Source: Melioribacter roseus (GTDB taxonomy: Bacteria; Bacteroidota; Ignavibacteria; Ignavibacteriales; Melioribacteraceae). Taken from it: 45,777 nt of DNA. This document shows, piece by piece, positions 5,292 through 37,942 of the stretch (positions within the stretch are counted from its first letter, which is position 1; each line of letters begins with the position of its first letter). Under the pieces are notes generated by a model. That model saw only the letters and a program-made list of their open reading frames with translations. It made no database searches and was not told the DNA's origin. The DNA is taken from the NCBI GenBank assembly GCA_020726285.1, contig DYSW01000002.1, positions 13,182-58,958 on the forward strand. Direction: 5' to 3'. Both the position numbers and the translations under genes were made by a program.

Positions 5292-6129
5292 TTTTTTAAC
5301 GAGATTTCTGAACGAACAACTTTCCATTTGGGAATTAGCCAAAAGCAATTACGAAAAATTGCAATTTGTAGAAGAAAAGGAATTTGTTTTCGGCACAATT
5401 AGAATTTTAGCTCAATATAATCCCGAAAGGGAAAAATCAACAATTGCTAAATTTGAGAAAACAACTGAAAAAATGTGCCTTCTGTGTGAAAATAATTTTC
5501 CAAAAGAGCAAATTAAATATGAAATAGTTGAAAATTATTTTTTGCTTGTAAATCCATTTCCAATTTTTACTGAGCATTTCACAATTGCACATAAAAATCA
5601 CATCGAACAAAATATTGATTTGGTTTTTAACGATTTACTTGAAATTAGCAGAAATTTGCCAGAAAATTATTTCATCTTTTTCAATGGAGCCAAAAGCGGA
5701 GCTTCAATTCCCGGGCATTTGCATTTTCAAATAGGAAGAAAAGATGAATTGCCAATTTTTGCAAACAAAATAGCAAATCAAAATCAGTTTTATGAACAGA
5801 GAACGATAAATCGGCATTTCGTAATTTCAAATTCCGACAATGAGAAAACTAAACAGCAATTTATTGATTTACTTAAAAGAGAAAAATTCAACCAAAATGG
5901 CGAAATGATAAATATATTAGCGTTTTTCGAGGAAAATTACTTCAAGATAATTGTATTTTTACGAAAAAAACATCGCCCAGAATTTTACTATTTATCAGGA
6001 GAAAACCAAATATTGGTTAGTCCAGCTTCAATTGATTTAGCGGGAAAAATTATATTTCCACGTAAAGTTGATTTTGAAAAACTCAGCAATGGAAAAATTG
6101 AAAAAATTTTCACAGAAGTGCTGTTTTAG
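5278..6129 (+). CDS. DUF4922-like HIT-superfamily nucleotidyltransferase/phosphorylase
   Basis: A 283-residue protein with the hallmarks of the GalT/Ap4A phosphorylase/GDP-L-galactose phosphorylase branch of the HIT superfamily: LLVNPFPIFTEHFTIA around residues 89-104, then FFNGAKSGASIPGHLHFQ at 134-151 with the active-site His147-x-His149-x-Gln151. The pair Cys67/Cys70 (CLLC) may bind zinc. I recall this family as DUF4922 in Bacteroidota. The expected chemistry is nucleotidyl transfer or phosphorolysis of a sugar nucleotide or dinucleotide in the cytoplasm; the substrate is unknown. The 14-base overlap with the glycosyltransferase suggests the two act on the same nucleotide sugar. Confidence 0.75.
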   Translation: MLVNDFLTRFLNEQLSIWELAKSNYEKLQFVEEKEFVFGTIRILAQYNPEREKSTIAKFEKTTEKMCLLCENNFPKEQIKYEIVENYFLLVNPFPIFTEHFTIAHKNHIEQNIDLVFNDLLEISRNLPENYFIFFNGAKSGASIPGHLHFQIGRKDELPIFANKIANQNQFYEQRTINRHFVISNSDNEKTKQQFIDLLKREKFNQNGEMINILAFFEENYFKIIVFLRKKHRPEFYYLSGENQILVSPASIDLAGKIIFPRKVDFEKLSNGKIEKIFTEVLF

Positions 6130-6452: not shown

Positions 6453-7820
6453 ATGAAAGAAAAAATAAGAATAGCTTCTGGACAAGGTTTTTGGGGCGAT
6501 TTAATTGATGCTCCAGTTTGGCAAGTTGAAAATGGTCAGATTGATTATCTTGTTATGGATTATCTTGCAGAAGTTACAATGTCCATTTTACAAAAACAAA
6601 AAAACAAAAATCCCGAACTTGGTTATGCAAAAGATATTCCACAATTGATGAAAAAAATACTTCCAACAATCAAGAAAAACAATGTGAAAGTGATAACAAA
6701 TGGCGGTGGCGTAAATCCAGAAGGATGTGCTTTGGCGGTATTAAAAATCGCAAAAGAATTGCAAATCGATTCACTTAAAATTGCAGTAGTAATTGGCGAT
6801 AACATTATGCATAGAATTGATGAAATTATTGAAAATGGCTCTAATTTGCAAAATATGGAAAATGGAGAATCAATTTTACCAATCAAAGAAAAACTACTAA
6901 GTGCAAATGCTTATTTTGGTGCTTTCCCGATTGTTGAAGCACTGCAAAGTGGAGCTGATATTGTAATTACAGGAAGAACAACTGACACAGGCTTAACACT
7001 TGCTCCGATGGTTTATGAGTTTGGTTGGGAGAAATCAAATTATGATTTAATGGCTGCTGGAACAGTTGCTGGTCACATTTTAGAATGCGGAGCACAATCA
7101 ACTGGTGGAAATTTTCTTGGGAATTGGGAAGAAATTGAAAATTTTGCACAGATTGGATTCCCAATTGCGGAAGCATTTCCGAATGGCGATGTAATTATAA
7201 CAAAACACGAAAATCTTGGCGGAAAAGTAACTTTTGACACTGTTGCAGAACAACTTGTATATGAAATCGGGAATCCTGAAGAATATATCACTCCAGATTG
7301 TGTTGCTGATTTCACATCAATTCAGTTGCAAGATTTAGGAAATAATCGAGTAAAAGTGTACGGAATAAAAGGCAAACCCGAAACTCCATTCTATAAAGTA
7401 TCGGCTTCTTATGATAGCGGATTTTCGGCAATTGGAAATTTAACTTATTCTTGGCCTAAAGCAATTACAAAAGCAAAAGCTGCTGACCAAATTCTAAGAA
7501 AGAGATTGGAAAATCTAAATTTGAAATTTGATGAAATTAACACAGAATTTGTTGGATATAATTCTTGTCACGGACCAATTGCCACGCAAATTGATGAGGA
7601 TTTGATAAATGAAGTTGTCCTTCGTGTTGCAGTTCGTTCAAATGATAAAGAATCTATTGAAAGATTTGGAAAAGAAATTGCTCCTTTAATTCTAACTGGA
7701 CCGCCAAGTGTAACTGGTTTTGCTGGCGGAAGACCACGCCCAAGTGAAGTTGTTGCGTATTGGCCTGCGTTAGTTAAAAAGGAATTAGTTATTCCACAAG
7801 TAAAAATTATGGAGTTATAA
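6453..7820 (+). CDS. AtuA (DUF1446) family protein, main domain
   Basis: A 455-residue protein recognisable as the acyclic terpene utilisation AtuA/DUF1446 family. It begins with IRIASGQGFWGD and has the glycine-rich VITNGGGVNPEG, DIVITGRTTDTGLTLAP, HILECGAQSTGGN and ITGPPSVTGFAGGRPRPSEV-like stretches (the last reads LTGPPSVTGFAGGRPRPSE). AtuA is required for growth on acyclic terpenes in Pseudomonas, but its biochemical activity is unresolved and the family is much wider than that pathway. No other terpene genes are present. The stop overlaps the start of the next gene by one base (TAATG), and that gene supplies the C-terminal domain that is fused in many relatives, so the two products probably form one complex. 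Confidence 0.85.
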   Translation: MKEKIRIASGQGFWGDLIDAPVWQVENGQIDYLVMDYLAEVTMSILQKQKNKNPELGYAKDIPQLMKKILPTIKKNNVKVITNGGGVNPEGCALAVLKIAKELQIDSLKIAVVIGDNIMHRIDEIIENGSNLQNMENGESILPIKEKLLSANAYFGAFPIVEALQSGADIVITGRTTDTGLTLAPMVYEFGWEKSNYDLMAAGTVAGHILECGAQSTGGNFLGNWEEIENFAQIGFPIAEAFPNGDVIITKHENLGGKVTFDTVAEQLVYEIGNPEEYITPDCVADFTSIQLQDLGNNRVKVYGIKGKPETPFYKVSASYDSGFSAIGNLTYSWPKAITKAKAADQILRKRLENLNLKFDEINTEFVGYNSCHGPIATQIDEDLINEVVLRVAVRSNDKESIERFGKEIAPLILTGPPSVTGFAGGRPRPSEVVAYWPALVKKELVIPQVKIMEL

Positions 7821-8140
7821 TGAAAAAAATTAGATTAATTGAAATTGCACACGGACGAAGTGGCGATAAAGGTGATGCTGCAAATGTTGGGATAATTGCT
7901 TATGATGAAGAAAAATATCAGATAATTAAGAAATATCTAACTCAGGAAGTTGTTAAAAATCATTTTGATGGAATTTGCTTCGGCACTGTGGAAAGATACG
8001 AATTGCCAAATATTAGAGCATTGAATTTTGTATTGAACAACACACTCGGTGGTGGCGGAACTATTTCATTAAAACACGACGCACAAGGAAAAACTCTTGC
8101 TGCGGCTTTGTTGAAGTTGGAAATTGAAATTGATGATTAG
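7820..8140 (+). CDS. AtuA-like C-terminal domain protein
   Basis: A 106-residue protein starting with IRLIEIAHGRSGDKGDAANVG and ending in LGGGGTISLKHDAQGKTLA, the conserved small domain found either fused to the end of AtuA/DUF1446 proteins or as a separate gene. It begins one base inside the stop codon of the AtuA gene, so translational coupling and an obligate partnership are likely. The function is unknown. The HGRSGDKGD stretch is strongly conserved in the family and could be a phosphate or CoA contact, which is a guess. Confidence 0.82.
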   Translation: MKKIRLIEIAHGRSGDKGDAANVGIIAYDEEKYQIIKKYLTQEVVKNHFDGICFGTVERYELPNIRALNFVLNNTLGGGGTISLKHDAQGKTLAAALLKLEIEIDD

Positions 8141-16111: not shown

Positions 16112-17428
16112 ATGAGTCTCAAAGAAATAATATTTCGTGCTGGAATTGTTGGAGCTGGTGGTGCTGGTTTTCCGACACACATAAAAGCTTCGTCAAAAGT
16201 TGATTTTGTTGTGGCAAATGGTGCTGAATGCGAACCACTTTTGCACAAGGATTTTGAAATATCTAAACACTTTGCAAAGGAAATTATCGCGGGAATGAAC
16301 TTGATGATTGCCGAAACTTCAGCTCAAAAAGGTTATTTTGGGATGAAAAGTAAGAATCAAGAAGCAATTGATGAAGTAGAAAAATACATCAAAAACACAA
16401 ACATTGAATTGACTGAATTGGAAGATTATTATCCCGCAGGCGATGAATACGAACTTGTTTATGAAACCACAAAAAGGTTAATTCCCGCACACGGAATTCC
16501 ACTTGATGTTGGAATAGTTGTAAATAACGTTGAAACTTTGTACAATATTTCTCAAGCAGAAAAAGGAATTACTCTAACGGAAAAATTTGTTTGCGTAACT
16601 GGAATTGTAAAAAATCCATCAACTTTTTTTGTACCGATTGGCACAACTTTTCGTCAATTATTAGATTTTGTCGGAGGCACAACTTCACGAGAATTTGTGT
16701 TTTTTGTCGGTGGAATAATGATGGGAAAACTTTCTGATAATTTGGATGAAGTAGTTACCAAAACTACTGCTGGATTAATATTTCTTCCTGCAGAACATTA
16801 TTTAGCAAACAGAATGCAACGCACAACTGCGGATATGAATAGAATCGGGAAATCAGCTTGCGACCAATGTTCATATTGCACTGAATTTTGTCCGCGATAT
16901 TTAATGGGATATGATGTTCAACCTCATAAAGTTATGCGTTCGCTTGGATTTTCAACAAGTGGAAATGCAATTTGGGACGAATATGCGGATTTGTGCAGCA
17001 CTTGCGGTTTGTGTTCACTTTATTCTTGTCCAGAAGATTTATATCCACGCGAAGCTTGTGTGCAAGGAAAAGAATATCTTCGAAATGAAAAAATTAAACA
17101 CGTTCAACCGAAAGAAGTAAAAATTCATCCAATGAAAAATGGGAGGAAAGTCCCACTAAAACAATTGATGAATAAACTGAATGTTCGTCATTTGAATTAT
17201 GAAACACCATTTCAAAACAATTTTCCTATACCAAAAGAAGTGAAAATTTTGATGAAACAGCATTTTGGAATTTCTGCAAAACCAATTGTTGTTATCGGAC
17301 AAAAAGTGGAAAAAGGTGAATTAATTGGAAAAATCGATGAAAATCAACTTGGTGCTTTGATTCATTCTTCTATCGAAGGAATTGTAACTCACGTTTCAAA
17401 TGAATTTGTAAGAATAAAATCAGAATAA
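16112..17428 (+). CDS. pduS: PduS/RnfC-like flavo-iron-sulfur NADH oxidoreductase
   Basis: A 438-residue protein. The N-terminal Rossmann-like NADH/FMN region starts GIVGAGGAGFPTHIK and contains ANGAECEPLL. An SLBB domain follows at about 165-215. Two [4Fe-4S] ferredoxin motifs follow at Cys250/253/256/260 and Cys295/298/301/306. A C-terminal RnfC-type barrel motif sits near 400-438 (GQKVEKGELIGKI). This order and length match PduS, the cobalamin reductase/electron shuttle of propanediol microcompartments, rather than membrane RnfC. The downstream PduT-like shell gene, 23 bases away, supports the microcompartment reading. The electron acceptor is unknown because no B12-dependent diol dehydratase is present. 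Confidence 0.85.
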   Translation: MSLKEIIFRAGIVGAGGAGFPTHIKASSKVDFVVANGAECEPLLHKDFEISKHFAKEIIAGMNLMIAETSAQKGYFGMKSKNQEAIDEVEKYIKNTNIELTELEDYYPAGDEYELVYETTKRLIPAHGIPLDVGIVVNNVETLYNISQAEKGITLTEKFVCVTGIVKNPSTFFVPIGTTFRQLLDFVGGTTSREFVFFVGGIMMGKLSDNLDEVVTKTTAGLIFLPAEHYLANRMQRTTADMNRIGKSACDQCSYCTEFCPRYLMGYDVQPHKVMRSLGFSTSGNAIWDEYADLCSTCGLCSLYSCPEDLYPREACVQGKEYLRNEKIKHVQPKEVKIHPMKNGRKVPLKQLMNKLNVRHLNYETPFQNNFPIPKEVKILMKQHFGISAKPIVVIGQKVEKGELIGKIDENQLGALIHSSIEGIVTHVSNEFVRIKSE

Positions 17429-17451
17429 TTGAAAAAGAGAAAGGTAAATAG

Positions 17452-17997
17452 ATGAATTCATTAGGTTTGGTAGAACTTTCTTCAATAGCTGCTGGAATGC
17501 AAGCCGCGGATTTGATGTTAAAAACAGCACAAGTTGAATTGATAATTTCACGAACAATCTGCTCAGGCAAATTTATGGTTATGATTGGCGGTGAAGTAGC
17601 CGAAGTACAATCTTCAGTTTCGGCAGTTGAAAAATCACTTGATTATGCTCTGATTGATTATTTCGTAATTCCGAATTTACATCCCGACATTTTTCCTGCA
17701 ATTTCGGGTCACACAAATCATGGTGAACTTGAAGCATTGGGAATTCTTGAAGCATTTTCAGTTGCATCGTTAATTGAAGCCGCAGATGCCGCAGTAAAAT
17801 CTGCAAATGTTAGATTAATTGAAATCCGAATGGCAATGGCACTCGGTGGAAAAGCTTTTTGCACATTAACAGGAGAAGTTGCAGCTGTAACTTCTGCAGT
17901 TGAATCTGGAGCAATGATAATTTCGCAAAAAGGTTTGCTAGTAAACAAAGTTGTAATTGCACAACCACGAAAAGAATTATTAAGTGAAATGATTTAA
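17452..17997 (+). CDS. pduT: PduT-like tandem-BMC microcompartment shell protein
   Basis: A 181-residue protein of two BMC domains. The first (about 3-90) starts LGLVELSSIAAGMQAAD and the second (about 93-180) starts EALGILEAFSVASLIEAAD. It resembles PduT closely along its whole length, including IPNLHPDIFPAISGH in the linker. Cys37 in SRTICSGKF is at the position where PduT trimers bind a [4Fe-4S] cluster in the central pore, which would relay electrons across the shell. The next-door PduS-like protein is its expected partner. No other shell gene (BMC-H or BMC-P) occurs in the window, so the main locus must be elsewhere if a compartment is built. Confidence 0.92.
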   Translation: MNSLGLVELSSIAAGMQAADLMLKTAQVELIISRTICSGKFMVMIGGEVAEVQSSVSAVEKSLDYALIDYFVIPNLHPDIFPAISGHTNHGELEALGILEAFSVASLIEAADAAVKSANVRLIEIRMAMALGGKAFCTLTGEVAAVTSAVESGAMIISQKGLLVNKVVIAQPRKELLSEMI

Positions 17998-31837: not shown

Positions 31838-31877
31838 TGGTGGAAAATTTCCCCAAAAAAAAGGAAATTCACTACCA
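31838..31877. terminator. Imperfect inverted repeat between convergent genes
   Basis: TGGTGGAAAATTTCC (31838-31852) pairs with GGAAATTCACTACCA (31863-31877) at 12 of 15 positions, with an A-rich loop. It spans the stop codon of the exonuclease gene and lies 48 bases after the hydrolase stop. It is a plausible but weak two-way terminator. Confidence 0.35.
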
Positions 31878-33512
31878 ATTTTCAATGTTTGTGTATAATT
31901 CGTCTTTTGAGGAAAAATCTGATAAATAATAAAATTTTGCAAGATGTTTGTGATTGACAAGCCAGTTTAGTAAGATTTTTATTCTTTCTAAATCTTCAGG
32001 GTCTAAATTATTTTCAATTTGAGAATCACCATCATAAAATGAACTGAGAGTTTCATCAACACTATTTTTTCTGAATTTTAAAAAATCGTTAATATACATT
32101 TTTCCATTTATCAGAAGAATTACATCATTTCCATTGTAACCTTGTATGTCAATTAAAACTTTGGCTTTATTAACTGGTTCTTTTAATATTGCAGTTTTTA
32201 GTAGTTGTTTTAGTATTTTCTGAATTGCATCTCGATATTCTGCCGCTTCTTCAAATTTCATCTGTTCGGAGAATTTTTGCATTTTTTCAAGTAGAATTTT
32301 GAGTGCCGTTTGATTATTTCCAGATAAGAATTCGTGTACTTGCAAAATTTCTTTTTCATACTGAATTTTTACATCTAATTCGCACGGAGCAAAGCATCTT
32401 TCGATTGCATGCAAATAGCAAATGCGTTTTCGTTTGAATTCACTTTCAGTACATTCTCTTAATTGAAATGTTTTATTTGCAACATCAAGAATATCGGCAG
32501 TTGTAAATCTGTCGGAATATGGTCCAAAATAATCAGAACCATCAAATGAAAACTTTAATGTTGATTTTAGATTTGGGAAAGAAACCGAATTATCTATTTT
32601 CACAAAATATGCTTCTGTAAATTTCTTTAATAAGTAATTCATTTTTGGGTTGTGTTGCTTGATTAATTGTGCTTCGGCAATTAACGCTGTAAGTTCAGTA
32701 TTGGTATGAAAAAAATCCAAATTGGAAGAATTTTTTACAATTTCTTTTGCTTTGCTACTTGCCGTTGGTAAAAAATAACTTGCTACTCTTTTTTTTATTG
32801 ATTTTGCTTTGCCGATATAAATTATTTCTCCTTTGCGATCTTTAAAAAAGTAAATTCCAGGTTTTTCTTCTGCTTTCATAAAATCATCAAGAAGTGTTTT
32901 CTTTCCAATTTTAATTTTTGTTCGAGCAATCGGTAATTTTTCAAAGAGATGAAGATTTGCAAAATCGAGAATATTGAATTCTTCTTCAAGAATTTCAAGA
33001 TATTTCAAAAAGATTTTTGCTGTAACAATTGCATCATCTAATGCTCGGTGTGTGTTATTTTCTCGGATTTTGAAATGATTACGTACTGAAGTTAAATTAT
33101 GACTTTTTAGTTGTGGAATTAGTCGTTTTCCTAATTTAACTGTGCAAAGTGATATATTTTTTGGCTCGGGAAATTCAGCACGTTGGAATTCCATTTTAAG
33201 AAATGATAAATCAAAGGCGGAATTGTGTGCAATTATTGGTGAATTTCCGATAAAACTTGCTACTTCGCTTATAATTTCATTGAAAATGGGTGATTTCCTT
33301 ACAGTGGAATTTGTAATTCCAGTTAGCAAAGTAATTTGATAAGGAATTTGTGATTCTGGATTAATTAGTGCTGAGTATGTGTCTGTTATTTTGCCATCTA
33401 AAATTTTTACTAAACCAATTTCAATTGCTCGTGAATTTTTGGCTGAAATCCCAGTCGTTTCAAAGTCGAGTACAGTATATTCAATCTTTTTAAGTTCGTT
33501 TTCTATCATCAT
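31872..33512 (-). CDS. DEDDh exonuclease fused to a GIY-YIG (UvrC/Cho-like) nuclease
   Basis: A 546-residue fusion. Residues about 8-170 form a DNA polymerase III epsilon-like 3'-5' exonuclease with Exo I DFETTG, Exo II AHNSAFDLSF and Exo III THRALDDAIV. From about 205 a UvrC-like GIY-YIG domain follows (EKPGIYFFKDRKGEIIYIGK, KKRVASYF). After this come CYLHAIERCFAPCE and a UVR-like helical pair (FEEAAEYRDAIQKI near 410). The RNase H-like second nuclease of full UvrC is not evident. This fits epsilon-Cho fusions that may process lesions after or instead of UvrC. I chose the ATG at 33512; the frame continues upstream to 33545 without family features. Confidence 0.88.
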   Translation of the reverse strand: MMIENELKKIEYTVLDFETTGISAKNSRAIEIGLVKILDGKITDTYSALINPESQIPYQITLLTGITNSTVRKSPIFNEIISEVASFIGNSPIIAHNSAFDLSFLKMEFQRAEFPEPKNISLCTVKLGKRLIPQLKSHNLTSVRNHFKIRENNTHRALDDAIVTAKIFLKYLEILEEEFNILDFANLHLFEKLPIARTKIKIGKKTLLDDFMKAEEKPGIYFFKDRKGEIIYIGKAKSIKKRVASYFLPTASSKAKEIVKNSSNLDFFHTNTELTALIAEAQLIKQHNPKMNYLLKKFTEAYFVKIDNSVSFPNLKSTLKFSFDGSDYFGPYSDRFTTADILDVANKTFQLRECTESEFKRKRICYLHAIERCFAPCELDVKIQYEKEILQVHEFLSGNNQTALKILLEKMQKFSEQMKFEEAAEYRDAIQKILKQLLKTAILKEPVNKAKVLIDIQGYNGNDVILLINGKMYINDFLKFRKNSVDETLSSFYDGDSQIENNLDPEDLERIKILLNWLVNHKHLAKFYYLSDFSSKDELYTNIENW

Positions 33513-33527
33513 TTTTTTTAATGTTAA

Positions 33528-33713
33528 GCACAAATTAACAAGCAATTTTCACTTGGCAAAGAATTTGCTGCAATTATTATCAGACTTGCGGCAAAATTGG
33601 AAAACTTACGAAGTGATTCAGTGTTGATTGCATTTCGAGTAACTGACACTGGAAAGGGAATTCCAGCCGACAAATTGACGGGAATATTTAGTAAAGATTT
33701 TCAAAAAAAATGA
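33528..33713 (+). pseudogene. Relic of a histidine kinase ATPase domain
   Basis: An open stretch of 61 codons without a start ends in LIAFRVTDTGKGIPADKL followed by TGIFSKDFQKK. DTGKGIP is the G1 box of histidine-kinase ATPase domains, and IF followed by F and Q is the next conserved block, so this is a short surviving piece of a sensor kinase C-terminal domain. There is no N or F box, no phosphoacceptor region and no ribosome-binding site. It lies back to back with the exonuclease gene. Confidence 0.55.
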
Positions 33714-33980
33714 TTATTGATGAATGGCTTTTCCGTTGGAAGTAATTATTTCAAGTAAGAATTACAATTAAGTGGTAAAAATGAAAGAATTAAAACCATC
33801 ATTTACAAATAAATCAAAAAGACAGAATAAATGTGAAAATCTAGATTATTTAGTTCTCAATTTTAATTTCTAACAACTTCTTTTTATCAAAAAAAAATCT
33901 TGTGCTATTTATTCGTTTCCAATAAGTTTACAATTAAGATTTTTTGTATTAATATTATTTATCCTATTAAAGGCGAACAA
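33714..33980. other. Intergenic region before the octaheme cytochrome cassette
   Basis: AT-rich sequence between the kinase relic and the cytochrome gene. A 30-codon open frame at 33781-33873 has no ribosome-binding site and no recognisable features. The promoter of the cytochrome cassette should be here but I could not identify it by eye. Confidence 0.4.
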
Positions 33981-35552
33981 ATGAGAAATTCATTTCTAAC
34001 GGTTGTGATTTTTGCGGTTCTTGTCTCGGCAACTTATTTTTATTTAAAATCACCAGAAATCGTTCAAACAAAACTAGAAGTTTTGAAAGAAAATTATTCA
34101 AAACCACGGGACAAAAAACCTGTAGATCACTCAAAATTTGAGGTTTTACAGAAACAATTCAATTCTCCTCAAGAAGTTGTAAAAACATGTATGAGTTGCC
34201 ACAACGAAGTTCACAAGGAATTGTTAGATTCTCCACACTTCAGGTGGCAAAGACCAGTTTATGAAAACGGACGTGGAGTAACTTATCTTGGTAAAGCGAA
34301 TGCAATTAACAATTTTTGTATTGGAGTTCAAGGAAGCGAAGTAAGTTGCAATAAATGCCACGCAAGTTTTGGTGAAGAAGAAGCAATGCTCGCAATTGAT
34401 GCCAATGCAGAAAATATTGATTGTCTAGTTTGTCATGATAATTCAGCAACATATTTGAAAGGGAACAATATGAATGGTTTTCCTGACAAATCTGTCGATT
34501 TAGCAGTAGTTGCAAAAAGTGTTGGAACCCCTACACGTGATAATTGTGGAGTTTGTCACTTTTTTGGCGGTGGTGGAAATAACGTGAAACACGGTGATTT
34601 GGAAAAAGCACAATTCCACACAACAAACGAAATTGATGTTCACATGGCTGATAATGGTGGAAATTTAATTTGTATCGATTGCCACACTACAGAAAACCAC
34701 AACATTAAAGGAAGACTATTCACAGTTGAATCAAGTAATACAAATAGAGTTAGTTGCACAGATTGCCATACTGAACTACCTCATGAAAGTACAGTATTAA
34801 ATGAACACACAGTTAAAGTTGCTTGTCAAACATGTCATATTCCAACATATGCAAAAGTAAATTCTGTGAATACAAATTGGGATTGGTCAAAAGCCGGAAA
34901 ATTAGATGCAAATGGAAAACCATTTGAAACGGAAGATTCACTTGGTGATCATGTTTATAAATCTATAAAAGGTACTTTCGAATATGCGAGAAACAAAAAG
35001 CCAGATTATATTTGGTTTAATGGAACTGCAGAGCATTACTTACTCGGGGATAAAATATCTGAAAAAGAAACACTTCTTGTATTGAATAAAATGAACGGTA
35101 ATTATAATGATGAATTTTCTCAGATAATTCCTGTAAATATTCATTATGCAAAACAACCTTTTGACCCAGGCACAAGAATGCTAATTCAACCAAAACTTGC
35201 AGCACTTGCAAAAGGTGAAGGTGCTTATTGGCAAGATTTTGATTGGTTAAAAGCAGCTGAAAAAGGAATGGAAGCATCTGGATTACCATTTAGCGGAAAA
35301 GTAGATTGGTTTAATACAGTTTCGTACTGGCCGATAAATCACATGGTTTCGCCAAAAGAGAATTCTCTACAATGCGTTGATTGCCATAATTCTGAAAATA
35401 GTCGTTTAGCAGGATTGAATGATTTTTATATGCCAGCAAGAGACAAATATGAACTTGTTGATACACTTGGAAATTTAATGATTTTACTAACAATTGCCGG
35501 TTTATTTGCACACGGTTCATTGCGTTATTACTTTGCAAAAAAACAGAAATAG
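33981..35552 (+). CDS. Octaheme c-type cytochrome, tetrathionate reductase (OTR) family
   Basis: A 523-residue protein with exactly eight CXXCH haem sites: Cys70, 123, 148, 189, 231, 259, 282 and 465. The spacing, with seven haems in the first 290 residues and a late eighth, and stretches such as HFFGGGGNNVKHGDL, HMADNGGNLICIDCH and WPINHMVSPKENSLQC match the octaheme tetrathionate reductase family known from Shewanella, which reduces tetrathionate, nitrite and hydroxylamine in vitro. An N-terminal hydrophobic segment (about 5-20) serves as signal or anchor, and a C-terminal span (about 492-510) ends in basic residues, so it is probably membrane-tethered in the periplasm. I chose the ATG at 33981 (AGG nearby) over a longer frame. 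It is the first gene of a four-gene cassette. Confidence 0.87.
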   Translation: MRNSFLTVVIFAVLVSATYFYLKSPEIVQTKLEVLKENYSKPRDKKPVDHSKFEVLQKQFNSPQEVVKTCMSCHNEVHKELLDSPHFRWQRPVYENGRGVTYLGKANAINNFCIGVQGSEVSCNKCHASFGEEEAMLAIDANAENIDCLVCHDNSATYLKGNNMNGFPDKSVDLAVVAKSVGTPTRDNCGVCHFFGGGGNNVKHGDLEKAQFHTTNEIDVHMADNGGNLICIDCHTTENHNIKGRLFTVESSNTNRVSCTDCHTELPHESTVLNEHTVKVACQTCHIPTYAKVNSVNTNWDWSKAGKLDANGKPFETEDSLGDHVYKSIKGTFEYARNKKPDYIWFNGTAEHYLLGDKISEKETLLVLNKMNGNYNDEFSQIIPVNIHYAKQPFDPGTRMLIQPKLAALAKGEGAYWQDFDWLKAAEKGMEASGLPFSGKVDWFNTVSYWPINHMVSPKENSLQCVDCHNSENSRLAGLNDFYMPARDKYELVDTLGNLMILLTIAGLFAHGSLRYYFAKKQK

Positions 35553-35564
35553 AAGGAAATGAAA

Positions 35565-36206
35565 ATGAAAGAAGTTTTAATTTATAAAGGTTATGAAAGA
35601 TTCTGGCATTGGACTCAAGCCGTTCTAATCATATTTTTAGCAGTTACAGGATTTGAAGTGCACGGTGGTTATTCATTTTTTGGATATGAAAATGCGGTTG
35701 TTTACCATCGATATGCTGCTATTGGATTAGTAGTTTTAATATTTTTTACAGCCTTTTGGCATTTTATTACTGGAGAATGGAAACAATACAAACCTACTCC
35801 ACAATTTGTTAAAGAACAAATTGAATATTACCTCTTAGGTATTTTCAAAAACGCTCCGCATCCAACCAAAAAAACTGTACTAAGCAAATTGAACCCACTA
35901 CAAAAACTAGCTTATTTTGGATTAATGGTAGTTATTATTCCATTGTTAGTAATAACAGGAATTATATATTTATTTTATAGAATGCCAAGTGCAACAAATA
36001 TGAATCCATTGAATTTGACAAATTTAGAACCAATAGCAATTTTGCATACAATTGGGGCTTATTTGCTAGTAATGTTCGTAATCGTACATCTTTATTTAAT
36101 TACAACTGGTCACACAATTTTAAGTAATCTTAAAGCAATGATTACTGGCTATGAAGAAATTGAAGAAGACGATGACCATCATAAAAAAGAAGAGAAAAAG
36201 GTTTAA
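35565..36206 (+). CDS. Cytochrome b subunit (cytochrome b561/hydrogenase-type)
   Basis: A 213-residue membrane protein with four predicted spans and the histidines expected for two b haems: YERFWHWTQ in span 1, VVYHRYAAIG and AFWHFITGEW in span 2, ILHTIGAYLLVMFVIVHLYLITTGH in span 4. The C-terminus is acidic then basic (EEIEEDDDHHKKEEKK). The ATG at 35565 is 7 bases from AAGGA; another ATG at 35559 is too close to it. Its likely job is to move electrons between the menaquinone pool and the octaheme cytochrome encoded 12 bases upstream. The direction of flow cannot be read from sequence. Confidence 0.87.
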   Translation: MKEVLIYKGYERFWHWTQAVLIIFLAVTGFEVHGGYSFFGYENAVVYHRYAAIGLVVLIFFTAFWHFITGEWKQYKPTPQFVKEQIEYYLLGIFKNAPHPTKKTVLSKLNPLQKLAYFGLMVVIIPLLVITGIIYLFYRMPSATNMNPLNLTNLEPIAILHTIGAYLLVMFVIVHLYLITTGHTILSNLKAMITGYEEIEEDDDHHKKEEKKV

Positions 36207-36208
36207 AA

Positions 36209-36727
36209 ATGGAAGAAAAAACAAAATATTCGAATCCATATTTAATTGGATTTCTACTAGGACTTTTAATTGTTTTAACAATTTACTTAAATGGAAATGG
36301 AGTTGGTGCAAGTGGTGCTTTCAAAAATGTTGTTGTTGGCACTTTGAACGAAATTGCTCCAGAAACTTCATCTCAATTGCAATATATTAAAGAATTCAAC
36401 GCAAGTCATACAGAATCACCATGGAAAGGCTGGTTAGTATTTCAAGTAATTGGCGTTGTAATTGGTGGATTTGTTTCAGGTCTTGTTTCAAACAGACTTA
36501 AATTTAAGTTCGAAAAAGGCAAAAATGTTAAATCAAAAATAAGACTAATTACAGCCTTAATTGGTGGAATGCTTTTCGGAATTGGTTCACAATTTGGTCG
36601 TGGTTGCACAAGCGGTGCCGGTTTAGATGGTATGGCAGTATTTTCTGTCGCTGGATTTCTTGTTACAATGATGATATTCGGAACAGGTTTTGCAATTGCT
36701 CCGTTATTCAAAAAACTTTGGTTATAA
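36209..36727 (+). CDS. YeeE/YedE family sulfur transporter, first half
   Basis: A 172-residue membrane protein with about four hydrophobic segments. It carries the YeeE/YedE (DUF395) signature GMLFGIGSQFGRGCTSGAGL with Cys133 at the place of a conserved cysteine used by TsuA for thiosulfate transfer through the membrane. It corresponds to one half of a full-length YeeE; the next gene supplies the other half with its own GGYCPG motif, so the two probably combine into one channel. It begins 2 bases after the cytochrome b stop. Confidence 0.85.
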   Translation: MEEKTKYSNPYLIGFLLGLLIVLTIYLNGNGVGASGAFKNVVVGTLNEIAPETSSQLQYIKEFNASHTESPWKGWLVFQVIGVVIGGFVSGLVSNRLKFKFEKGKNVKSKIRLITALIGGMLFGIGSQFGRGCTSGAGLDGMAVFSVAGFLVTMMIFGTGFAIAPLFKKLWL

Positions 36728-36748
36728 TTTAATTTTTGGAGATAAATT

Positions 36749-37942
36749 ATGGGACCTATATTCCCTGAAGCAAATTTTAATTTAGTATTAGCACTGATTA
36801 TTGGTTTTATTTTCGGTGTTTTACTTGAACAAGCCGGATTCTCATCAAACAAAAAATTGGTTGGAATTTTCTACGGCTACGATTTTACAGTTTGGCGAGT
36901 ATTTTTTACAGCCGCAATAACTGCAATGGTTGGAGTTCTTACTCTATCTCATTTTAATTTATTAGATATTAGCTTAATTTATATTAGTCCAATGTATTTG
37001 TGGTCAGTTGTTGCTGGTGGCATCATCATGGGATTTGGTTTTATCCTTGGTGGTTATTGTCCTGGAACTAGTCTTTGTGCTGCAGCTATCGGTAAGCTTG
37101 ACGCAATGGTTTTTATTCTTGGAGTTGCACTTGGTGTATTTGTATTTATAGTTGGATATCCAATGTTTGAAGGAATTTATCTTGGTTCCTTCATGGGAGC
37201 TCCTCAAATATTCGATTTGCTTAATATCTCAATGGGATTATTCACTTTCATTATTGTAATTTTTGCTTTCTTAAGTTATTGGGGTGTTGGAATTCTTGAA
37301 CGCAAAATTAACAACGGCGAAAGCTACGAACTAACTTCAAAATCTGGATTTTTTAAGATATTTGCACTAGCAACGGTTGTTGCATTTGTAGCCTTATTTA
37401 TGTCACCTTACAAACAAACTCTTTTAGCAGATTTCAATTCAGCAGATTTCGGCAAAGATGCAAATATTAATTTGATTTCTTCAGATGATATTGCAGTTAG
37501 ATTATTAAAAAATGATAATTCTCTTCAATTTATTGATTTGCGATTACCAAACGAATTTGCAAAACTTGCTTTGCCTTATGCTTTAAATGCTACTCCAGAA
37601 GAATTTTTCCTTCCACGTGTGTCAGATTTTATCAATCAAAAGCAAAAAATAACAGTTATTTATGGAGGCGATGAAAAATTAGCAAAAAAAGTAGCTGTTT
37701 TAGCAGTAAAAATTGGATTTAATCCAAATAAAATCTTGGTCTTAAAAGGCGGATTTAATGAATTTATGAAAGACATTATAAATTTTGAAATGCCAAAAGA
37801 ACAACCAAATTCAAGTATTTTGAAAACTACATATTTATTCAGACACGAATACAATGGTAGAATTAAGGAAATTCTTGAAAATTCTAAGCCAAAACAAATA
37901 GTTTTACCAAAATCAAAAAGAGCGTTAGGTGGTTGTGGTTGA
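36749..37942 (+). CDS. YeeE/YedE sulfur transporter fused to a cysteine-less rhodanese domain
   Basis: A 397-residue protein. Residues 1-180 are a YeeE/YedE half with GFILGGYCPGTSLCAAAIGKLDA (Cys104, Cys110). A further span lies at about 203-219. From about 240 a rhodanese-like domain follows: FIDLRLPNEF (262-270), VIYGGDEKLAKKVA (303-316) and VLKGGFNEF (331-339). The catalytic cysteine expected after VIY is Gly306. The only cysteine outside the membrane part is Cys396 in the C-terminal GGCG. By the positive-inside rule (ERKINNG before the last span) the rhodanese part would be periplasmic. It is the last gene of the cassette, followed by a terminator. Confidence 0.83.
   Translation: MGPIFPEANFNLVLALIIGFIFGVLLEQAGFSSNKKLVGIFYGYDFTVWRVFFTAAITAMVGVLTLSHFNLLDISLIYISPMYLWSVVAGGIIMGFGFILGGYCPGTSLCAAAIGKLDAMVFILGVALGVFVFIVGYPMFEGIYLGSFMGAPQIFDLLNISMGLFTFIIVIFAFLSYWGVGILERKINNGESYELTSKSGFFKIFALATVVAFVALFMSPYKQTLLADFNSADFGKDANINLISSDDIAVRLLKNDNSLQFIDLRLPNEFAKLALPYALNATPEEFFLPRVSDFINQKQKITVIYGGDEKLAKKVAVLAVKIGFNPNKILVLKGGFNEFMKDIINFEMPKEQPNSSILKTTYLFRHEYNGRIKEILENSKPKQIVLPKSKRALGGCG

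Follow-up and report, generated by a model that had tools for sequence, protein, structure and literature searches.

The octahaem cytochrome c OTR was reportedly crystallised two decades ago. In the excerpts of the papers that we cite by PMC number, the OTR of Shewanella reduces tetrathionate in vitro (PMC4484225), the OTR of T. dismutans has a cytochrome b neighbour (TDIS_1882/1883; PMC4911364), and other otr genes are found near a NiFe hydrogenase in Caldithrix (PMC5317091) or beside soxY-S3 and soxZ in lucinid symbionts (PMC11237559). After tetrathionate, the otr transcripts of an acidobacterium were up 1.8-fold at day 1 (not significant) and 36-fold at day 8 (p 0.0488; PMC8528874), which supports a function of otr in natural sulfur metabolism, and in one spring otr was counted as tetrathionate reduction in 73 genomes of 14 phyla (PMC9040765). 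Octahaem SirA/Otr-like cytochromes are also encoded with rhodanese-domain proteins in clusters 5-T and 4 of Dethiobacter alkaliphilus, and one of them is up in thiosulfate-grown cells; they are only 20-23% identical to Otr or SirA, and the excerpt mentions neither YeeE halves nor a tail (PMC10376724). Here we analyse a stretch of 45,777 nucleotides of Melioribacter roseus (hereafter the window; assembly GCA_020726285.1, contig DYSW01000002.1, positions 13,182 to 58,958), in which an otr gene and a cytochrome b gene are followed by two genes for a split YeeE/YedE transporter, the second of which continues into a rhodanese-like domain and a Gly-Gly-Cys (GGC) tail.

Full-length YeeE/TsuA imports thiosulfate, and the half-length proteins PmpA and PmpB have one conserved cysteine each, matching Cys293 and Cys91 of TsuA (PMC11582611). 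In E. coli the split transporter YedE1E2 took up zero-valent sulfur, with transport in the inward direction only and one essential cysteine per half, whereas full-length YedE3 did not move zero-valent sulfur (PMC10812762). Genes 3 and 4 of the window resemble PmpA/PmpB and YedE1/YedE2 in being two half-length membrane proteins with one conserved cysteine each. They differ from what the excerpts describe in that the polypeptide of the N-terminal half continues with an extra helix, a rhodanese-like domain and the GGC tail, and in that the linked enzyme is a putative reductase instead of a persulfide dioxygenase. A GGC motif on a swinging arm is known from SoxY, a survey of which discarded GGC-less sequences (PMC11237559). 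Gene 4 shares with SoxY a flexible C-terminal Gly-Gly-Cys arm; unlike in SoxY, the arm stands on a rhodanese fold tethered to a membrane channel, Pfam at E 0.001 gives no SoxY domain, and no SoxZ partner was seen, no genome search for Sox genes having been made. The Sud protein of Wolinella, which we take to be a periplasmic rhodanese feeding polysulfide reductase, would likewise be a periplasmic rhodanese fold serving a sulfur reductase; Sud presumably works via its active-site cysteine, whereas gene 4 lacks that cysteine and has one on its C-terminal arm instead.

OTR, cytochrome b, split YeeE and rhodanese are thus each known, as are the OTR-cytochrome b pair and the neighbourhood of octahaem cytochromes and rhodanese-domain proteins. 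In the literature searched (open-licence PMC papers) we found no paper on a link between OTR and YeeE or on a GGC-tailed rhodanese, and the tethered, catalytically dead GGC-tailed rhodanese common to OTR and Psr systems is not in the literature found.

Results

The fourth gene carries an inactive rhodanese fold and a Gly-Gly-Cys tail

The four genes are arranged and conserved like an operon, the rhodanese-like domain of gene 4 has lost its catalytic cysteine, the protein ends in a conserved GGC tail, and the same transporter is found elsewhere beside PsrABC-like genes. We think that the tail is the most informative feature of the operon; it was absent from an initial annotation of this DNA, as was a C-terminal hydrophobic stretch of gene 1.

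Gene 4 scores 35.5 bits against PF00581 (cut-off 22.2), and its AlphaFold2 model contains a rhodanese fold (Z 12.7, 2.1 A over 106 residues against 3tp9, in a comparison that covered residues 236-384 and not the membrane part). The mean pLDDT of the model is 80.3, with 91-98 for residues 221-380, 58 for residues 381-390 and 39 for residues 391-397, and the tail is predicted to be disordered. The rhodanese domain noticed in the initial annotation is therefore present as a fold, but not as an enzyme: at the catalytic position of the C-x-x-G-x-R loop we found Ala (33), Ser (12), Gly (7) or Asp (2) and Cys in none of 54 homologues. The same position is Cys in all ten motif-bearing rhodaneses from similar operons that served as alignment reference. 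Since the catalytic cysteine is missing in 54/54 homologues, an active sulfurtransferase role of the domain was rejected.

Downstream of the rhodanese fold, the protein consists of a last helix, a low-confidence linker and Gly-Gly-Cys followed by 0-2 residues, the tail reading GGCG in the window. The GGC tail is present in 79 of the 80 distinct full-length homologues from four-gene cassettes (identical proteins counted once; L084, L097 and L161, our numbers for the loci, excluded as cut or split). The three GGC residues are 100% identical where present, against mean pairwise identities of 54% for the membrane part, 30% for the rhodanese fold and 24% for the linker. In L161 the fourth gene (6814-8006) is spread over two reading frames, and the second piece keeps the GGC. 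Among 977 other genes in the flanks of loci L023-L142 none has a GGC ending and five end in GC with 0-2 residues beyond; the ending is also absent from 110 OTR, 102 cytochrome b and 85 third-gene proteins of these loci. A general sorting signal was rejected on the count of 0/977, which covers the flanks and not whole genomes.

By the charges of 54 sequences, loops 1 and 5 would face inwards and the N-terminus outwards; the rhodanese domain is therefore predicted to lie outside, in the periplasm.

Conservation of the four-gene cassette

The genomic context of otr was examined in three samples, with automated gene calls; the samples share ancestry, so that the counts are not independent. Among 28 OTR loci fetched from relatives (weaker or fragmentary matches left out), 19 have the four genes in order, including L029 where the OTR is cut by the contig end, four have OTR and cytochrome b only, and five have OTR alone. 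The nearest OTR loci were taken as the best 80 of at least 582 in named genomes, a sample biased to the window's own type: both YeeE halves lie downstream in 55 and cytochrome b was counted in 78, the other two being L093, where it lies inside an over-extended frame, and L120, which is cut by the contig end.

An even draw of 296 genomes across the phylum (OTR threshold E 1e-60) gave 42 genomes with OTR at 46 places; at most five candidates were scored per genome, so that second copies may be missed. The four genes were found at 25/46 places, a YeeE pair without cytochrome b at one, cytochrome b only at 12 and neither at seven, all seven with short OTRs, and one place with a partial gene (G052) fell outside the examined set of 45. 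One of the 25 is L164, whose third gene is masked by an over-extended frame. The YeeE pair thus stands at 26/46 OTR loci. OTR-cytochrome b pairs without YeeE, which the initial annotation had named as the observation that would speak against a functional link, are the minority, as YeeE genes lie in the same operon at 25 of 37 pairs. The 12 YeeE-less pairs come from ten genomes of one family (f24) and from second copies in the host and one congener. The cassette also occurs on contigs of metagenome-assembled genomes (MAGs) titled Chthonomonadia (L069), Acidobacteria (L093), Acidobacteriota (L101), Planctomycetales (L115) and LCP-89 (L082), with mis-binning possible. Two carriers of the cassette are named strains, Mariniphaga anaerophila DSM 26910 (L099) and Gaoshiqia sediminis A06 (L100). 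With four-gene loci across the relatives, the phylum draw and these other-phylum contigs, a chance or genus-confined association was rejected: the link is more than an accident of gene order.

Across 88 cassettes the median gaps are 1, -4 and 13 bases, and gaps of at most 30 bases were found in 77, 73 and 81 of them at the three junctions in order. Because these gaps are small, separate transcription of the YeeE genes, the other objection foreseen in the initial annotation, is unlikely, and the YeeE genes as a unit apart from otr were rejected. In 9/88 cassettes an insertion of more than 500 bases separates cytochrome b from YeeE; it holds an F0 rhodanese gene, plus a further gene in three loci. 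Mantel correlation between the distances of OTR and of the fourth gene is 0.90 (79 distinct cassettes), against 0.66 for cytochrome b and 0.74 for the third gene, and 0/999 permutations reached the observed values.

GGC tails elsewhere and the same transporter beside PsrABC-like genes

In 17 of the 25 nearest OTR loci without downstream YeeE, a rhodanese-family protein ending in GGC is encoded within 6.5 kb. Ten small GGC-tailed rhodaneses keep the catalytic cysteine and have a lipoprotein-like N-terminal cysteine; the F0 rhodanese-family neighbours have a GGC ending in 40/68 cases. The tailed rhodaneses match general rhodanese models only, and all fall below the NCBIfam cut-offs. Altogether a GGC-tailed protein is found at 69/80 nearest OTR loci. 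Of the 11 others, L084, L097, L109, L120, L124 and L142 have little or no downstream sequence, and L086, L133, L136, L138 and L140 have downstream room yet no such protein.

A search of the phylum draw with a profile of the fourth gene found homologues in 51/296 genomes. We examined 31 transporter sites, 29 of them without OTR and two (L128 and L139) also holding one; 20 of the profile-search places were fetched in that step, and L059-L062, where YeeE genes of this class are lacking or replaced by other kinds, did not enter the count. Typically a PsrA-like molybdoenzyme comes first, followed by an FeS protein and an NrfD-type membrane protein, then by the two YeeE halves and a rhodanese that is mostly separate. 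A PsrA-like gene lies at most four genes upstream of the transporter at 25/31 sites, one of which also has OTR, and a protein ending in xGC (often REGC or KEGC, some GGC) at most three genes downstream at 28/31, two of these proteins not being recognised as rhodaneses. Among the GC-tailed rhodanese-class proteins of L176-L195, 17/18 have no cysteine between residue 30 and the tail; the exception is that of L194, whose cysteine lies, by reading, at the catalytic site. In L177 the PsrA-like protein finds its best match in the Thermus polysulfide/thiosulfate reductase (2vpw, E 7e-192) and scores 470 against the NCBIfam PhsA model, below the cut-off of 694.

Elsewhere in the phylum, homologues of Thermus PsrABC thus occupy the place next to this transporter that OTR-cytochrome b has in the cassette; unlike OTR, PsrABC is a molybdenum enzyme, and none was found in the host genome. 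A third-gene tree (FastTree, no bootstrap, 120 rows, YeeE halves under 160 or over 280 aa excluded) requires four changes between OTR and Psr partners, and its well-supported branches force at least two changes for the OTR label. That a transporter and a carrier are common to two unrelated reductases suggests for OTR a job like that of polysulfide or thiosulfate reductase.

Three further arrangements were seen. At L139 (1452-13642), PsrABC-like genes, YeeE halves and a GGCS rhodanese adjoin an OTR-cytochrome b operon that also holds a GGC rhodanese, a double rhodanese and a porin-like gene. L183-L186 lack both OTR and Psr genes nearby; their YeeE halves are accompanied by two rhodaneses, one of which ends in RMGC. 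In a YeeE cluster of L055, a PsrA-like molybdoenzyme (463-2805) ends in EEGC and a 92-aa protein (5742-6020) in DEGC, so the cysteine tail there is not confined to rhodaneses.

The split channel, the OTR and the cytochrome b

The two YeeE/YedE halves recognised in the initial annotation were recovered with PF04143 (cut-off 27): gene 3 covers model positions 175-308 (68 bits) and gene 4 positions 4-176 (50 bits), the C-terminal half preceding the N-terminal half in the window. Gene 3 aligns to the second half of 6leo (E 5e-6). The alignment of gene 4 to 8j4c is weak (E 0.11), and by sequence no solved structure matched it better than E 0.09-0.12, 8j4c included; Pfam at E 0.001 gives Sulf_transp, Rhodanese and a weak DUF6691. 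Cys133 of gene 3 (RGCTSG) is invariant in 20/20 sequences and Cys104 of gene 4 (GGxCPG) in 54/54, at the positions of Cys293 and Cys91 of TsuA. The first of the three TsuA cysteines is replaced by Ser (50), Gly (2), Ala (1) or a gap (1) in 54 sequences, and in the TsuA equivalog search gene 3 scores 39 bits against a cut-off of 400 and gene 4 gives no match. By likeness, genes 3 and 4 encode a split YeeE/YedE transporter of the PmpAB and YedE1E2 type. The thiosulfate cargo that had first been assumed is not supported, as the halves match PmpA/PmpB and YedE1/YedE2, the latter importing zero-valent sulfur in E. coli (PMC10812762).

Gene 1 scores 526 bits against TIGR04315 (curated cut-off 375), has eight CXXCH haem motifs, in agreement with its earlier assignment as an eight-haem OTR-family cytochrome, and matches a single solved structure, 1sp3 (E 6e-108). 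Eight CXXCH motifs are found in 137/141 OTRs of at least 400 aa and seven in the other 4. Lys203 of gene 1 aligns to Lys153 of 1sp3, which we take to be the lysine ligand of the active-site haem, and this position is Lys in 141/141. The protein has an N-terminal signal- or anchor-like stretch and, after the last haem motif, a hydrophobic stretch resembling a membrane anchor; the length beyond that motif is 52-90 residues in 85 OTRs whose neighbours include YeeE and GGC genes, versus 29-33 in 9 OTRs without cytochrome b. In sequence family, eight haem motifs and conserved lysine, gene 1 is like the Shewanella oneidensis OTR (1sp3). It differs from that OTR and from the T. dismutans pair by its C-terminal hydrophobic stretch, and this part of the family is regularly joined by YeeE halves and a GGC-tailed protein.

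Gene 2 scores 97 bits against PF01292 (cut-off 30.1), which upholds its description as a dihaem-type membrane cytochrome b. His17, 35, 50, 101, 163 and 177 are invariant in 22 sequences, presumably enough for two haems, judged by the family pattern. At L103 (9611-10780) the cytochrome b partner of OTR is fused to PAS domains, and by reading likewise at L117, L128, L134 and L136, as if the quinol-oxidising subunit were also a sensor.

The host genome

The host assembly (2.06 Mb in 140 contigs, completeness 100, contamination 1.73) has one YeeE pair and two OTRs. The second OTR, 47% identical to that of the window, is paired with a cytochrome b on contig C35 (L023, 5383-7715); such a second pair is also found in three congeners (L024, L026, L027). 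A family search found a single rhodanese domain, that of gene 4. TusA, molybdopterin oxidoreductase, NrfA and sirohaem sulfite/nitrite reductase were not found, these absences being provisional as each is based on one family search of an assembly. A search for PAPS reductase gave one borderline match (22.9 versus 22.5 bits) in a 515-aa frame, taken to be another ATP pyrophosphatase.

Discussion

The initial annotation, which read the operon as a redox and transport module, is partly supported. It was right in outline, in that genes 1-4 form a conserved unit joining redox chemistry, probably of a sulfur compound, to the movement of sulfur, and it needs correction as to the active rhodanese and the thiosulfate cargo. 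The octahaem cytochrome is probably a sulfur-compound reductase. For the operon as a whole we hold it slightly more likely than not that a periplasmic reductase of sulfur compounds works together with sulfur import, the two being coupled by a tethered carrier arm.

As to the substrate of OTR, the direction of transport and the loading of the tail with sulfur, we infer the following scheme. The cytochrome b would oxidise menaquinol and pass the electrons to the octahaem OTR, which, anchored on the outer membrane face, would split an S-S bond at its Lys-ligated haem. The substrate would be an inorganic S-S compound such as tetrathionate, another polythionate or polysulfide. The two YeeE halves would form a channel with two essential cysteines, bringing sulfane (zero-valent) sulfur into the cell, and part of the sulfur would thus be imported, coupled to periplasmic reduction. 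At the outer mouth of this channel the rhodanese-fold domain would be a non-catalytic scaffold for the flexible Gly-Gly-Cys arm, whose cysteine would carry a persulfide or thiosulfonate and swing from OTR to channel and back, like the SoxY arm among the Sox enzymes.

Several observations weigh against this scheme. The Shewanella OTR also reduces nitrite and hydroxylamine, according to the excerpt (PMC4484225). OTR-cytochrome b stands with neither YeeE nor GGC protein in the ten f24-family genomes, in L136, L138 and L140 among the nearest 80 loci, and in the second copy of the host genus; the electron-transfer pair can therefore do without channel and arm. L173 has OTR and a YeeE pair, no cytochrome b, and a tail reading GGLCS, and L086 is the sole full-length homologue of gene 4 without an in-frame tail, three frames having been read. 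The membrane part of gene 4 is modelled with middling confidence (block-mean pLDDT 46-87), and the charges of residues 218-240, just before the rhodanese domain, are not decisive for its location (3.24 K+R versus 3.67 D+E). The host genome, which like most of the relatives is metagenome-assembled, showed neither TusA nor a second rhodanese, so that none of the known cytoplasmic acceptors of sulfane sulfur was found in it.

A rather unlikely alternative is plain tetrathionate respiration, in which OTR-cytochrome b would reduce tetrathionate, the YeeE pair would import the thiosulfate product for assimilation, and the GGC tail would be structural, as a disulfide tether or assembly signal. It draws on the tetrathionate reduction by OTR in vitro (PMC4484225), on the thiosulfate uptake by full-length YeeE/TsuA (PMC11582611) and on the host, where no sirohaem sulfite reductase was found and a reduced sulfur source would therefore be needed. 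The halves, however, have not the first of the three TsuA cysteines, gene 3 lies far below the TsuA cut-off, and zero-valent sulfur was moved by the YedE1E2 halves and not by full-length YedE3 (PMC10812762); a tether would also leave unexplained the same tail on rhodaneses of like operons with intact active sites. The direction could also be oxidative or sensory, the arm gathering outside sulfane sulfur, the channel importing it for signalling and OTR-cytochrome b acting as oxidase or redox sensor, to some extent like SoxT1B of Hyphomicrobium. The PAS domains on cytochrome b (L103 and, by reading, four more loci), the MarR-, MerR- or Crp-like genes adjoining many loci, the histidine kinase just upstream in a congener and the tie of YeeE-like SoxT1B to sulfur signalling (PMC11582611) would fit. 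We nevertheless hold this improbable: the other partner of the transporter is of the PsrABC-like reductase type, and the tetrathionate/thiosulfate couple at +198 mV (quoted in PMC8528874) would make menaquinol well suited as donor and menaquinone poorly suited as acceptor.

That OTR serves for nitrite or hydroxylamine reduction, with the sulfur genes as incidental neighbours, we judge distinctly improbable, since OTR is tightly co-inherited with the sulfur genes and the host search found neither NrfA nor any molybdopterin oxidoreductase, which leaves no nitrate reductase from the latter family. Slightly less credible again is the handling of selenium or tellurium oxyanions as in the Ext system of Geobacter. 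It is suggested by weak matches at other loci (L103: porin versus ExtI, 54 bits, cut-off 150, and double rhodanese versus ExtH, 60, cut-off 200; L178: multihaem cytochrome versus ExtM, 257 bits, cut-off 800). All of these lie below the curated cut-offs and come from relatives, whereas the window operon has no such gene, with no match to the Ext families among its four proteins.

From the favoured reductase-and-import scheme we tentatively go one step further, to a proposal that we would rate somewhat short of even. The GGC-tailed proteins may represent a new class of periplasmic sulfur carriers, rhodanese folds with a SoxY-like GGC arm that are either tethered to the split YeeE, with loss of the catalytic cysteine, or free. 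They would serve both OTR-cytochrome b and PsrABC, which would have replaced each other at least two times, and the substrate of this OTR clade would be arm-bound sulfur and not free tetrathionate. If true, sulfur presented on an arm would help explain the unclear in vivo role of OTR. A large part of the OTR family is firmly tied to a sulfur channel and to an arm tipped with cysteine, which offers a specific handle on OTR function. The arrangement suggests that swinging-arm channelling as in SoxY had a second origin on a rhodanese scaffold, that among the rhodanese-domain proteins of Bacteroidota/Ignavibacteriota some act as carriers and not as enzymes, and that a so far unrecognised route exists for sulfur handover between enzyme and channel. 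Surveys that count otr as tetrathionate reduction could gain from checking the neighbouring genes.

Gene layout and neighbouring features

The four genes are co-directional, as first described, all on the + strand within 33981-37942 (Table 1). The intergenic gaps are 6, 2 and 21 bases; the initial annotation gave 12, 2 and 21, and its first value holds only if gene 2 starts at its second ATG.

Table 1. Features of the otr operon and its borders in the window.
Feature	Coordinates	Strand	Evidence or remark
otr, octahaem cytochrome c of the OTR family, 523 aa	33981..35552	+	TIGR04315, 8 CXXCH, 1sp3 match
cyb, dihaem-type membrane cytochrome b, 215 aa	35559..36206	+	PF01292; putative quinol dehydrogenase of OTR
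gene 3, YeeE/YedE C-terminal half (PmpA type), 172 aa	36209..36727	+	PF04143, 6leo alignment
gene 4, YeeE/YedE N-terminal half (PmpB type) + extra helix + rhodanese-like domain + Gly-Gly-Cys-Gly tail, 397 aa	36749..37942	+	PF04143, PF00581
rhodanese-like domain of gene 4, residues 240-345, predicted periplasmic	37466..37783	+	without catalytic cysteine
predicted disordered linker and C-terminal arm, gene 4 residues 379-397	37883..37939	+	low pLDDT
codons of Gly394-Gly395-Cys396 in gene 4	37928..37936	+	conserved GGC tail
terminator-like hairpin 3' of gene 4 stop codon	37965..37994	+	13 pairs, loop 4, T-rich tail
hybrid histidine kinase remnant upstream of otr	33579..33742	+	tblastn with 827-aa kinase of L025

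The downstream terminator of the initial annotation corresponds to a hairpin with a T-rich tail. As the region has two terminator-like sites against a mean of 2.7 in shuffles, with no excess, it is supported as a terminator by its position only. Promoter-like sites in the window are no more numerous than in shuffled sequence, and an Rfam search of the window gave no match. The upstream relic also proved real: its codons match a hybrid histidine kinase that is an open frame of 827 aa at the same place in a congener (L025, 3040-5523), at 93% for residues 481-522 and 100% for residues 816-827 (tblastn). To judge from this comparison, the host has lost the sensor gene adjoining its otr operon.

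Elsewhere in the window, 31872-33545 encodes a fusion of RNase_T exonuclease, GIY-YIG and UVR domains, by reading a UvrC/Cho-like repair protein, and 16112-17997, to go by reading only, an RnfC/PduS-like protein and, behind it, one with two repeats that resemble microcompartment shell proteins.

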